From NCBI GenBank assembly GCA_021295695.1, contig JAGWBW010000021.1, forward strand, positions 1 to 42,672: DNA of 42,672 bases, given 5' to 3'. The notes under the pieces were generated by a model. It did no database searches. It was not told the DNA's origin and was given only the letters and a program-made list of their open reading frames with translations. Positions within the stretch are counted from its first letter, which is position 1, and every line of letters starts with the position of its first letter. The position numbers were made by a program, and so were the translations under genes. Source of the DNA: Candidatus Latescibacterota bacterium. Its GTDB lineage: Bacteria > Latescibacterota > UBA2968. Positions 17,168 through 21,588 of this stretch are shown one piece after another.

Positions 17168-17928
17168 AAGACCTCATCTCTGGACGCACCGGACTCTATC
17201 GGCAAGAACTCCAAGTCAGAGATTACCAGATCTCGGAACTACAGGTCAGCGAAATTCAACTGGCCTCGAACATCTCGGAAGAAGGCGCGGCAAAATTCCA
17301 AAAAGAAGACGTGTGGATCATTCCCATTCCCACGCGCAGTTATGCTACAACGCAGAATGTCTATGCCTACTTTGAAATCTACAACCTGACCAAAGACACC
17401 TTTGGACAAACCCGCTACAAAACCGAATACCGCATTCGCTCCAGTGCTATGCCCGCTGTTGGTGTATTTGGCGCTGTGGCCACGGGGTTGCGCACCATCT
17501 TTAGAACCAGCAAACCCCAGGTGGCCATCACCAACGAACTCACGGGACGCGAAGCCGACGAGCGCGAATACGTCGAAATCGTACTCAACAAAGTCAGACC
17601 CGGCGTCAACGCACTCGAAGTCATCGTAACCGACCTGGTCAGTGGCAAGAGCATCGAACGCGAAGTGCGCTTATGCGTATTATCGCTGGCGAATTTAAGG
17701 GCCGCCGCATCCTTTTTAACAACAAAAAATACGGCAATGCCCGCGTCACATCCGACTTTGTCAAAAAAGCCGTGTTCTCTTCCCTCGGCGAAATCCTCTG
17801 CGGCAAATACTTCCTCGACCTCTTCTCTTGCTCCGGGCAAATCGGCCTCGAAGCCTGCAGCCGCGGCGCGCAGGTGGTCATCAATGAACCCGACCGCCGC
17901 TGCAACCGCTTCATCGCACAGCTCATAG
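17164..17928 (+). CDS. GWxTD protein, C-terminal part in a shifted frame
   Basis: Open frame whose protein-like content starts already at about 17005 (ANEGHTSIYRTTDEFAYHG, VPPGKYELQVQMKD), i.e. in the -1 frame relative to the previous entry, after a TGA in this frame at 16999. It continues through beta-rich sequence (YQISELQVSEIQLAS, PTRSYATTQNVYAYFEIYNL, GVNALEVIVTDLVSGKSIE) that fits a GWxTD C-terminal domain. From about 17673 onward it runs out of frame over rsmD for 255 bases as a low-complexity Ser/Ala/Lys tail, so the true stop seems lost as well. ATG 17164 is only the first in-frame ATG; it is unlikely to be a natural start. Mutation or assembly error are both possible. Confidence 0.6.
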   Translation: MKDLISGRTGLYRQELQVRDYQISELQVSEIQLASNISEEGAAKFQKEDVWIIPIPTRSYATTQNVYAYFEIYNLTKDTFGQTRYKTEYRIRSSAMPAVGVFGAVATGLRTIFRTSKPQVAITNELTGREADEREYVEIVLNKVRPGVNALEVIVTDLVSGKSIEREVRLCVLSLANLRAAASFLTTKNTAMPASHPTLSKKPCSLPSAKSSAANTSSTSSLAPGKSASKPAAAARRWSSMNPTAAATASSHSS

Positions 17929-18242
17929 ACAATTGGCATCTCAACGACCGTATTGAACTCTACGCGCGTCCCGCGCAAAAACTCTTGCCCCAACTCGCGC
18001 ATCTAAAAGCCCTATTTGACATCATCTACCTCGACCCCCCCTATCACCAGCAATTAGACGGGCAACCCATGTCCTGCGCCATGCTCACCCGCCTCGCAAC
18101 AATTCCGATACTCGCTCCCAACGCCCGCGTTCTCGTCCAACACGCCTCTCGTACAACGCTACCCAAATTCCTTCCCAACCTCGCCCTCTCTCGAGAAAAA
18201 AAATACGGCGATACAACGCTGAGCACATACGCCGTAAAATAG
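17673..18242 (+). CDS. rsmD: 16S rRNA (guanine966-N2)-methyltransferase
   Basis: Methylates N2 of G966 in 16S rRNA, using SAM. 189 residues, usual size. MRIIAGEFKGRRI is the canonical start; VTSDFVKKAVFSSL matches the RsmD conserved segment; SAM-binding FLDLFSCSGQIGLEA (47-61) has Cys where Ala/Gly is usual; catalytic DPPY at 121-124 is intact. It starts inside the extended GWxTD frame, so the two may once have been adjacent in an operon. No terminator is obvious downstream. Confidence 0.92.
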   Translation: MRIIAGEFKGRRILFNNKKYGNARVTSDFVKKAVFSSLGEILCGKYFLDLFSCSGQIGLEACSRGAQVVINEPDRRCNRFIAQLIDNWHLNDRIELYARPAQKLLPQLAHLKALFDIIYLDPPYHQQLDGQPMSCAMLTRLATIPILAPNARVLVQHASRTTLPKFLPNLALSREKKYGDTTLSTYAVK

Positions 18243-18606
18243 ATTGTCATAAAATTGAATAATGCAATTCATTAAAACCCTCAAATGAGCTTCTTGGGAA
18301 GTTGTACACCGCCTGTTCAAAGTATAGTAAACTGTAGAAAGTCCTTGTTTTCTTCGATAAATTGACTATATCTAAAAAACATTCCTTAGTAGTCAAAAAA
18401 GGTTATTTGCCCTGACTTACACCCTGTCAAGCCAGGCTTAAACCACCGAACTCCTGTGTTCACCGGAGAGGTGTCATTGCGGCATGGTTTTAGCCGCCAC
18501 GCCGCAGGCACAACGCCAGTAATCCAGTCTATCAGAAAAGATAACAAATGTTAGCGAATTTTTTCCTGACCACTTAATTTGTGTTCGTAGAGTGATTGGA
18601 GATATT
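18243..18606. other. Intergenic, AT-rich, contains REP-like copy B
   Basis: No gene seen. It holds one REP-like element (18473-18527) and a weak promoter-like pair TTGTAC/TATAGT (18302-18328, spacer 15). It marks the left border of the restriction-modification island and its base composition changes here toward AT. Confidence 0.5.
18473..18527 (-). repeat. REP-like intergenic repeat, copy B
   Basis: Reverse-complement copy of 7368-7421. In this copy the hairpin is nearly perfect: GCGGCGTGG pairs with CCATGCCGC (one G-T) around CGGCTAAAA. It lies upstream of the methyltransferase gene. Confidence 0.75.
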
Positions 18607-19797
18607 ATGTCAAAAAAAATAACGGTTTACGATCAGCGGAAATATCGCGTGAAAAATGTTGAGGATGCAAAACAGATTTCCACCAATTATCTACAAAATA
18701 TCGATCTTAACAAGGCAATAGAGTTTGGCCTGCCAGAAGTAGATGACCGATATCATCTCTGGCGAGTGCCCTTAAAGAGTAAAGATAACAATAAGATAGG
18801 CGAGATAGTAATCGACGCATATACTAGTTTAATACAGGAGCCAAAGACAACTCAAAAGGAGGTCTTAGAAGCAAGGTTGCTCGGGCGCACAAACGGTAAA
18901 AGAAAAAAAGGGAAAAAAGCGGGTGTACCTAAAATTTCAAATTTGAGAAATTCGGTTGGTTTGGGAGATAGTGAAGAACTGCTTTCGGAAACACCATCTG
19001 AATCGGTTGACCTCGTCTTCACATCTCCTCCCTACTATAATGCTCGACCTGAATATTCTGATTACATCCAATACGACGAATACTTACTCAAAATGAGAAA
19101 AATCATACATCAGTGTCATAGAGTTCTAAATGAAGGACGGTTTTTTGTCATAAACATAGCACCTGTGTTGATTCGCAGAGCAAGTCGAAACGAATCTTCT
19201 AAGAGAATAGCAGTGCCTTTTGATATTCACAGAATTTTTATCGAAGAAGGATTTGAGTTTATAGATGATATAATATGGGTGAAACCGGAAGGTGCCGGGT
19301 GGGCAACCGGACGAGGCAGAAGATTTTCGGCTGACAGAAATCCGTTACAATACAAATCTGTCCCCATAACAGAATATATTTTGGTCTATCGAAAGAGTAC
19401 GGAGAAATTGATTGATTGGCATATTAGAAAACATCCAGATCAAAAACGAGTTAAAGAGTCTCGAATTGAGGATGGGTATGAAGTAACCAATATCTGGAAA
19501 ATTCATCCTGCTCACAGCAAAAAGCATCCAGCAATATTCCCATTAGAACTTGCAGAGAAAGTGATTCGATACTATTCATTTAAGAATGATGTCATTCTCG
19601 ATCCCTTCGCGGGTATTGGCACAGTTGGGCAAGCTGCCTCCAAACTCAATAGGAGATTTGTACTATTTGAAATCAATGAAGAATATGTTAATGAAATTAA
19701 GAAGAATATTGAGAACTGGTTGCAACAGGAAGTTGAAGAAGTGAATTGGATAAACTGTGACCCAGTCGCACCCATCAAGCACTATATTGAATTTTAG
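18607..19797 (+). CDS. Site-specific DNA methyltransferase, beta class (N4-cytosine or N6-adenine)
   Basis: Modification enzyme of the type II system. 396 residues. Motif [11 protein letters not shown] (139-147) precedes motif [14 protein letters not shown] (from 332), the order of beta-class amino-methyltransferases; TSPPY favours N4-cytosine but does not prove it. The N-terminal 110 residues ([20 protein letters not shown]) carry no known motif and may be the target-recognition part. ATG 18607 follows TTGGAG at seven bases. It lies 14 bases ahead of the endonuclease-like gene, in the same AT-rich island with codon use unlike the flanks, a sign of horizontal transfer. Confidence 0.9.
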
Positions 19798-19811
19798 AAC
19801 CGGAGAAACCA

Positions 19812-20891
19812 ATGTTTTATGAGACAATATCGCAAAATATTCCCCGTATTGGTGAATCTCTGGCAAGGTATCGAGGTGTTGAAGTAATTGACAGGATTGG
19901 TGAGGATATCGTTAAAGAAGTTGTGACCTCTGTCCTGTGTGGTGGGAATATCCGTTCTTTAACCGAGGGATTGACCCGGAGAAGATTGACGCTTTCAAAT
20001 GCTGCACTATTTGTGACTTTTCTCAGGTCTGGTCAAGATATTGAGGATTTTGTCGATAAGATCCCGGAGATTGTAAAAACCGAACTGAGATCAAGAATAT
20101 CGAGTGAGAGAAAACTTTTTTTACAATGGTGTATCGGTCTAACAGGAAAAAGTATCCAGAATGTATTGAGAAGTAGGGATAATGAATTTGATAATTACCT
20201 CAATGCTCTTGAGGAATCACTTAGACAATCTACGGATAAATGTAAAATTGACTATGGGGAACTCGAAGGTATTTTGAAAATTCAGGGTGTGGAATGCAAG
20301 GTGGATTGGCCATTCATTCTCTATCTTTTTGCTGCTATTGGCACTCAAACATTAGCAATTAGAGGTTCCGAAAAATCAATGTATGGGAAGTTGTTTGAAA
20401 AGCTTATATTGGGTTCTCTTCTCTCATTATTGGGCTTTCGGAAAATTGATCTCCAAAATACTGATGAGGCCAACAAAGTTTTCTGGTTATCTGACCGAGG
20501 GAAAAAACGAGAGAGTGATGCCACCCTTTTATATGAACCAGGCGTCGGCGTAAGATTCGACATTGGTTTTATTGGGCCGGGGAATACAGAGATATCTTTG
20601 GATAAAGTATCGAGGTTTGAAAGAGAGATAGAATTGGGCAGACAGACACATTACATGTCTACAATTATTTTAGTCGATAGAATTGGTGAACGCAGTCGTA
20701 TTGTCCAAATGGCTGAAGCCATAAATGGCAATATTGTTCAAATGAGTATGACCCACTGGACTAAAGAAGTAGCAAGTATTTTGGCGGAGAAAATTGGTTT
20801 TGAGCATCCCATACTGGATTTATCAAATCGTGAGAGTTTAGAATACATTAAAGATGGCATGGAACAAATCAATCTGCGAGAATTTATATGA
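19812..20891 (+). CDS. Putative type II restriction endonuclease (CfrBI-like?)
   Basis: 359 residues, coupled to the methyltransferase (14-base gap), therefore most likely its endonuclease. A PD-(D/E)xK-like centre is suggested by KRESDATLLYEPGV and VRFDIGFIGPGNTEISLDK (about 238-268). The overall look and the pairing with a TSPPY methyltransferase recall the CfrBI family, which cuts CCWWGG, but I recognise this only loosely. The N-terminal half is helical with no known motif (RIGESLARYRGVEVIDRIGEDIVKEVV). AT-rich like its partner. Confidence 0.65.
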   Translation: MFYETISQNIPRIGESLARYRGVEVIDRIGEDIVKEVVTSVLCGGNIRSLTEGLTRRRLTLSNAALFVTFLRSGQDIEDFVDKIPEIVKTELRSRISSERKLFLQWCIGLTGKSIQNVLRSRDNEFDNYLNALEESLRQSTDKCKIDYGELEGILKIQGVECKVDWPFILYLFAAIGTQTLAIRGSEKSMYGKLFEKLILGSLLSLLGFRKIDLQNTDEANKVFWLSDRGKKRESDATLLYEPGVGVRFDIGFIGPGNTEISLDKVSRFEREIELGRQTHYMSTIILVDRIGERSRIVQMAEAINGNIVQMSMTHWTKEVASILAEKIGFEHPILDLSNRESLEYIKDGMEQINLREFI

Positions 20892-20922
20892 CCTTATTCA
20901 ACTGGCGGGTTCACTTTCTAAC

Positions 20923-20951
20923 TTGCTATTCACTGGCAAAATCACTATGTT
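20923..20951 (+). promoter_or_regulatory. Putative promoter of the DUF5069/UGA gene
   Basis: TTGCTA (20923-20928), 17-base spacer, TATGTT (20946-20951). Start near 20958. With GAAGGAGG ahead of ATG 20990 and a terminator after the stop, the short gene has a full transcription unit. Confidence 0.4.
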
Positions 20952-20989
20952 ATGACATGTAAAAGCCATTATACCTGAAGGAGGAATCA

Positions 20990-21265
20990 ATGGACAAACT
21001 CAGTTCTGCCGTCGATTTTAGACCGCGCAGTCGTCAGCTTTACATGGGCGACATGCCCTGGCTCCCGCGCATTACAGATAAAGCCCGCGCCAAATTGCGA
21101 GGCTGCATCGGTGACTACATCTATCCGTGACCAGCTGACAGAAAGTTCCTGGAGGAACTTGGGGTAGAAGCCGAAGAATTTACAAACATCGTCGCATCCA
21201 GCCCGACCGATGCCGAAGTTATCGAAAAAGTAAAACCCATCTGGGACAAATCGCATTCTGAGTAA
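20990..21265 (+). CDS. DUF5069-like protein with in-frame TGA: candidate selenoprotein (or nonsense-mutated gene)
   Basis: With TGA read as an amino acid this is a 91-residue protein of the DUF5069 type: FRPRSRQLYMGDMPWLPRIT, DKARAKLRGCIGDYIYP, [TGA], PADRKFLEELGVEAEEF, TDAEVIEKV. TGA is codon 47 (21128-21130). Relatives, as I remember them, read Y-x-C-P-L-D at this place, so TGA replaces a conserved Cys codon, the hallmark of selenocysteine. The frame on both sides is intact, the start has GAAGGAGG at five bases, and a terminator follows the TAA. A 7-bp hairpin stands 12 bases after the TGA (next entry). Without Sec insertion only 46 residues would be made. No sel genes are in the window, so a single TGC/TGT to TGA mutation cannot be excluded. 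Confidence 0.7.
21131..21160 (+). promoter_or_regulatory. bSECIS-like hairpin directly after the in-frame TGA
   Basis: AAGTTCC (21143-21149), loop TGGA, GGAACTT (21154-21160): seven perfect pairs. The stem begins 12 bases after the TGA, and a G is the second loop base, 20 bases after it. This fits the rule for bacterial SECIS elements as I recall it (stem-loop just 3' of UGA, small loop, G in the first two loop positions, loop roughly 16-37 bases from UGA). The sequence also encodes protein, as bacterial SECIS must. Confidence 0.6.
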
Positions 21266-21301
21266 AAAAAAAGCCGTCACACAATGTGGCGGCTTTTTTT
21301 T
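21264..21301 (+). terminator. Intrinsic terminator after the DUF5069 gene
   Basis: AAGCCGTCAC (21271-21280), loop ACAAT, GTGGCGGCTT (21286-21295), then T-run. The single imperfect pair is U-G in the plus-strand RNA, so it is oriented plus, although the A-run on its left may let it act on the minus strand too. The TAA stop lies in the A-run. Confidence 0.9.
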
Positions 21302-21588
21302 AGTTATAGCGGCCTCAAACCATCACGACCCCAACCTCTCTCCTCCATTCCTGAGAGCCACAGGTTTTCCACTCACTGGTTTGCCAAATCCCTGTGCAAA
21401 AATCAGAAAATCGCCTTCATCCCCCGATGATGCACAATATGCGCCTCGTGATCTTGTTGCCACACATCGTATTCCGGTGCGCTCGCAAACGCACTTACCC
21501 GACGCCGCATTGACCATGCCTATCATACCCCCGGAAAAGATAATGATCCATCTCCGTAAGTTCATCACAAACTCTTTTGCATATTCAT
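21302..21588. other. Gene-poor stretch downstream of the ABC permease
   Basis: No recognised gene. A minus-strand frame of 81 codons (21568-21323) would encode a Cys- and Gly-containing peptide beginning MMNLRRWIIIFSGGMIGMV; it has no good RBS, no family I know, and other minus-strand frames also look partly protein-like, so it may be a decayed gene. Confidence 0.35.

Follow-up and report, generated by a model that had tools for sequence, protein, structure and literature searches.

The stretch of DNA analysed here comprises 42,672 nucleotides and is referred to below as the window. It corresponds to contig C94 of a draft genome of 5.33 Mb, which consists of 415 contigs and is 93.8% complete. 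On its forward strand, at 20990..21265, lies a gene of 91 codons (20990-21262) closed by TAA (21263-21265), whose sole internal stop is an in-frame TGA at 21128..21130, codon 47, where selenocysteine (Sec) would be inserted in the context YP-U-PAD. With this TGA read through, residues 12-83 of the product match PF16798, DUF5069, with E 1.7e-16; the score of 61 bits exceeds the gathering cut-off of 27 bits and places the protein in the family, and profile positions 4-75 of 133 are covered. A preliminary description of this DNA had called the gene DUF5069-like, with an intact frame on either side of the TGA; the match, which spans the codon, bears this out. The single PDB sequence match at E <=1 was 3omd, with its YNCPLD aligned with YP-TGA-PAD of the window, and no NCBIfam family model matched the window protein at E <=1.

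A ribosome-binding site, AAGGAGG, can be read in the sequence at 20978..20984 of the same strand, and purine-rich stretches occur upstream of most relatives' starts. Behind the gene, at 21273..21300 (forward strand), there is a terminator-like stem with a T run, and two such sites were found against 0.4 expected. Both elements had been named in the preliminary description together with a promoter, for which no support was obtained: the lone sigma-70-like match in 20850-21350 lies on the opposite strand, and a single match is no more than chance would give (0.6 expected). An Rfam scan of 20900-21350 returned 10 matches; none reached its gathering score, and every one overlaps the terminator region.

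Three genes of the same strand precede this unit. The rsmD-like gene for a 16S rRNA methyltransferase (17673..18242; PF03602, E 3.4e-38; TIGR00095, 114.1 bits, just below the cut-off of 117.5) represents the usual upstream neighbour of the DUF5069 gene in close relatives, and no more than about 100 nt separate the end of rsmD from this gene in 7 further genomes of the genus. The other two, outside the selenoprotein gene, encode a DNA methyltransferase (18592-19797, PF01555) and a CfrBI-like restriction endonuclease (19812-20891, PF09516), and 18592-20891 apparently represents a restriction-modification system that has entered the interval from rsmD to the selenoprotein gene. Among the loci compared, such a pair stands beside the DUF5069 gene in the source genome and in G032 (L061, L019), and beside or near it in L022.

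The source genome also encodes a tandem DUF5069 protein (G000:C354:13922-14737, L148), which shares the domain with the window protein and has YDCPIDK in one of its two copies, but is longer, contains no in-frame stop, and has lost the Cys in the other copy, where Ser-Gly takes its place (GENSGLDK). Three-domain versions of DUF5069 proteins occur in relatives. There is, in addition, a fourth, weaker DUF5069 match in the source genome (G000:C43:8821-9114; L147, L018) with 38 bits, and no row was gained from it when it was aligned with the Sec-family profile.

The hairpin downstream of the TGA

A bSECIS-like hairpin, AAGTTCC-TGGA-GGAACTT, occupies 21143..21160 of the forward strand, exactly where the preliminary description had placed a 7-bp hairpin with the loop TGGA; its assignment draws on conservation, covariation and predicted folding. 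The 7-bp stem starts 12 nt after the TGA, the distance from UGA to the loop (21150-21153) is 19 nt, and the first loop G, at 21151, is 20 nt after the TGA. Among the 1417 TGA triplets on both strands of the window, two precede a hairpin that has bacterial SECIS geometry and 7 or more Watson-Crick pairs, and the exact spacing and loop length are found behind one, namely TGA 21128-21130.

Folding energies are -6.7 kcal/mol for the bare 18-nt hairpin and -9.4 kcal/mol for the 42-nt stretch beginning with UGA. The bSECIS model and the energy limit of -7.5 kcal/mol used here were taken from section 5 of PMC13188914. This limit is reached by 58 of 61 TGA loci, and also by 11 of 12 loci with Cys; thus, energy cannot tell the two forms apart, and minimum free energy was dropped as a SECIS criterion. 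A generic search for 6-bp bSECIS-like hairpins was positive in 58 of 61 TGA loci and 3 of 12 Cys loci; both locus-wise tests leave aside G379, G247 and 46 further copies. The Rfam model SECIS_1 (RF00031) gave no match in the source genome, and since it was equally silent in all 14 control genomes, this null result is uninformative.

Conservation of the hairpin follows the TGA closely. The sequence TTCCTGGA stands just downstream of the TGA in 108 of 108 TGA copies from two phyla, and the 12-mer hairpin core, TTCCTGGAGGAA, in 105 of them, the exceptions (G059, G060 and G062) varying in the 3' arm. Among the 13 copies with Cys, the former occurs once (G391) and the latter never. Different stems are nevertheless used around this core: GTATTCC/GGAATAC in G379, and ATGTTCC/GGAACAT as the commonest stem of the second phylum (31 of 72).

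In 37 TGA genes there are 25 degenerate codon columns with the amino acid kept in at least 90% of rows, and synonymous entropy is zero in exactly four of these, the hairpin codons for F, L, E and E. The same four codons are found in G379, which falls outside the 37-gene count due to a one-codon insertion. When 38 hairpin elements (34 distinct) were aligned and compared with 500 shuffles, the covariation score was 0.329 versus 0.124 in the shuffles and at most 0.105 with the partner slid, the proportion of paired cells was 92.9% versus 79.9%, and cells changed on both sides numbered 28 versus 10.3, none of the 500 shuffles being as high as the observed score, paired proportion or number of changed cells. 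Three pairs showed changes in both partners, a number not above the shuffles (reached in 348 of 500), and the excess of further pair types was modest (8, reached in 16 of 500). At pair 21-34, G-C is exchanged for C-G and in one case for A-U; 16 of the 34 distinct rows leave the outermost pair open, and in G059 the top pair of the hairpin is mismatched. Taken together, these patterns argue that the hairpin is under selection at the RNA level, with covarying outer stem pairs.

Selection on the protein was estimated from 16 of the 36 TGA sequences of the source phylum, giving 120 pairs, those not used below being saturated or undefined. For the half before the TGA, 79 pairs were usable and gave a median dN/dS of 0.205; for the half after it, 95 were usable and the median was 0.225, or 0.246 with the hairpin codons removed (63 usable pairs). 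The half downstream of the TGA thus appears, from these substitution patterns, to be under purifying selection and still translated as protein.

Distribution of the TGA and of the selenocysteine machinery

A scan of contigs from named genomes yielded 9 loci, all with TGA at codon 47; seven of these contigs are labelled Latescibacterota or Latescibacteria and two Gemmatimonadota. The counts for the phylum of the source genome, called below the first phylum, exclude these loci, some of which duplicate counted genomes, as well as L145, a duplicate of L077. Among 64 genomes of the first phylum searched, 44 gave a match at E <=1e-8, that of G058 being a distant paralogue only. The short homologues number 43, of which 36 have TGA and 7 (in G052-G056, G057 and G061) TGC or TGT at the same codon. 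No short homologue was found at E <=1e-8 in G031, G048, G058 and G063, which belong to the same class, or in 17 genomes from other families of the phylum.

In the total of 386 relatives searched (these 64 and 322 others), two TGA copies were found outside the first phylum, in G102 and G379. Both genomes belong to one phylum, the second phylum, of which 84 genomes were then covered. A match at E <=1e-20 is present in 77 of them: 71 have TGA, in 72 copies, and the remaining six, all of family f175, are Cys forms. All 72 TGA copies and all six Cys copies were read directly in the sequence. Confinement of the TGA to a single copy would have spoken against the preliminary description; instead, the TGA recurs in 36 of 64 first-phylum and 71 of 84 second-phylum genomes.

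At this codon, then, UGA is aligned with Cys, TGA occurring in 108 copies and TGC or TGT in 13. The earlier statement that relatives carry Cys at the place of the TGA holds for the short form, as all 13 non-TGA copies read C-P-A-D, and fails as a rule for DUF5069 at large: among 63 distinct wider domains from the loci examined, the aligned residue is Cys in 22, Ser in 36, Ala in 4 and Phe in 1, and a universal Cys was rejected. The Ser-type domains belong mostly to tandem-repeat proteins, with extra residues at the Cys place.

The preliminary description had also asked for selA, selB, selC and selD, and selA, selB, tRNA-Sec and selD all occur in the source genome. One tRNA-Sec gene scores over the cut-off (73.3 bits; anticodon tca according to ARAGORN), selA (578 bits) and selB (345 bits) adjoin each other on C233, the selB match covering profile positions 1-344 of 581 up to the contig end, and selD (362 bits) lies beside the tRNA-Sec gene on C151. 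This selD has an in-frame TGA of its own, in CGG-U-ASK, with a hairpin-forming stretch behind it. The 36 first-phylum TGA genomes are similarly equipped: tRNA-Sec was detected in 34 (E <=1e-9; absent from G039 and G062, 73% and 76% complete), selA in 36 (35 over the cut-off and a fragment below it in G044), selB in 35 (E <=1e-60; absent from G043, 75% complete) and selD in 36 (E <=1e-40). Two tRNA-Sec genes with equal scores, on C12 and C31, are present in G027.

The Cys-form genomes of the first phylum present a more varied picture. G057, an 86% complete draft, has no tRNA-Sec, selB or selD at the thresholds used and its selA-like matches are distant; the entire Sec trait seems to have been lost there. 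In G052-G056 selD, like the DUF5069 gene, is without TGA, and in G052 and G053 no tRNA-Sec was found at the thresholds used, though selA and selB are present. G061 encodes the Cys form, yet keeps the Sec machinery and a TGA-containing selD; the Sec/Cys state and the machinery thus need not change together.

A tree was built from 70 different sequences out of 77, over 79 columns and with the Sec position blanked, two Cys proteins of other bacteria being the farthest rows. It requires three Sec/Cys changes, as against a mean of 13.9 in shuffles, of which none in 500 was as low. First-phylum copies form one supported group, beside which the second-phylum Cys family f175 is placed without full support, and the tree leaves 19 of its 65 inner branches open. 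One old gain of Sec with two later returns to Cys is the simplest reading of this history and probably the right one; other arrangements with three changes are possible. Judging from these sequences, the gene may have reached both phyla either by descent or by transfer.

Probable decoding of the TGA and possible function of the protein

We consider it very probable that 20990-21265 encodes a genuine selenoprotein; within the range of our searches, no Sec-containing branch of DUF5069 has been described before. The basis of this reading lies in the sequences: TGA and Cys replace each other, the hairpin is conserved and covaries as RNA, the half behind the TGA evolves under purifying selection, and the genome encodes the Sec machinery. 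According to the proposed mechanism, the hairpin at 21143-21160 would recruit SelB with Sec-tRNA-Sec, and the UGA at 21128 would be decoded as Sec to give a protein of 91 residues; when Sec is not inserted, translation would end after 46 residues. Actual insertion of Sec at codon 47 is what we infer from these features. The candidate new selenoprotein of the preliminary description, with its TGA at a Cys position, is thereby supported, the Sec genes being present, the TGA recurring in many genomes and the short homologues having Cys in its place.

Other explanations of the same codon have to be weighed. A nonsense mutation in a decaying Cys-type DUF5069 gene, accompanied by a hairpin that arose by chance, would account for a bare stop codon and for nothing else; the same codon is TGA in 108 copies with an invariant motif behind it, dN/dS hardly differs between the two halves, and such a hairpin at the same spacing and with the same loop follows a single TGA in the window, all of which makes decay practically negligible as an explanation. 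It is also very improbable that an ordinary residue, for instance Trp as in code 4, is inserted at the TGA, or that the codon is passed by general read-through. Nothing specific speaks for this, conservation of the frame being equally expected under read-through; TGA terminates 9 of the 22 long open reading frames of the window, homologues have Cys rather than Trp, tRNA-Sec, selA, selB and selD are present, and the 12-mer core of the hairpin is missing from Cys copies.

A hairpin selected at the RNA level need not be a SECIS element, and it could be imagined that the TGA is a true stop, the hairpin a regulatory or pausing element, and the two halves separate products. However, Cys relatives fuse both halves in one frame without the 12-mer core, and the DUF5069 match crosses the TGA; we therefore regard a true stop, too, as highly unlikely. 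With its UGA decoded as Sec, the window gene would represent a new family among selenoproteins of the usual bacterial type, with UGA and bSECIS, a reading that the sequence comparisons support very well.

As to novelty, the preliminary description knew of no DUF5069 selenoprotein, and none appears in Table 1 of a 2026 review (PMC13188914), which lists 119 selenoprotein families and subfamilies, or elsewhere in the literature searched, as far as the available parts of these sources extend. Like the known bacterial selenoproteins of that table, the window gene has UGA at a Cys position and sel genes in its genome; it differs in lacking UxxC or CxxU and in belonging to a family that the table does not list. 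The available parts of PMC12013277 and PMC8318568 contain no mention of DUF5069, the latter, retrieved with selenoprotein and Latescibacter, dealing with selenoproteins of another bacterium, and a search for selenoprotein and Poribacteria found nothing. The literature search as a whole returned no mention of DUF5069 or PF16798 in the text available, and the family could be contained in a groundwater-MAG study that PMC13188914 cites for further unvalidated selenoprotein candidates. The catalogue of selenoproteins would thus gain a widespread family, whose genes standard gene finding is expected to stop at codon 46 and so to miss.

The predicted model of the protein (pLDDT 82.8, pTM 0.70) consists of four helices, the second of which begins at residue 48, directly after Sec. 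A fold search gave one convincing match, again 3omd (E 3.4e-3, TM-score 0.71 by query length), and every other match had E >=1.9. This Cys-type DUF5069 protein of Leptospirillum rubarum shares the domain and fold with the window protein and has Cys, in C-P-x-D, at the Sec place; in the window protein Sec would replace this Cys, and its PF16798 match extends over part of the 133-position profile.

Seven residues (R13, R15, W24, R27, D30, K31 and D50) are invariant in 26 first-phylum rows and recur in most second-phylum copies compared, and they may form a pocket; R33 is also invariant in these 26 rows, but many copies of the second phylum have Asn, Ser or Lys there. No Cys besides Sec-47 is conserved in the Sec copies, and, counted from about 40 codons before Sec, 72 of 72 second-phylum and 15 of 36 first-phylum Sec proteins are free of Cys altogether. 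Sec/Cys-type residues at helix starts are often catalytic, and the lone Sec, in a YP-U-[PGA]-x-D (or FP-U) loop at a predicted helix start, would by this token be a catalytic or redox selenol. Because no other Cys is conserved, the site presumably relies on an external thiol.

These features could define a new class of selenoenzymes, small, helical and non-thioredoxin-like, with a single Sec and no partner Cys, which arose once before the split of the two phyla or passed between them. Such a protein, present in nearly all searched genomes of several families, may be a main reason why the Sec trait is retained there; we give this whole proposal slightly less than an even chance. These observations point to the Cys of DUF5069 as the functional residue in a family without a known role, which offers a handle for assays, and a protein with one Sec and no Cys provides a clean system for the question of selenium over sulphur.

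Gene neighbourhood was also considered as a clue to function and was set aside as inconsistent: rsmD precedes the gene in families f1 and f2, f4 has different neighbours, and in three loci of the second phylum (L188, L189 and L190) a chorismate mutase/prephenate dehydratase is encoded downstream. In L188 a UPF0182 protein is encoded upstream of the DUF5069 gene, and in L189 the upstream protein matches NCBIfam hypothetical-protein models.
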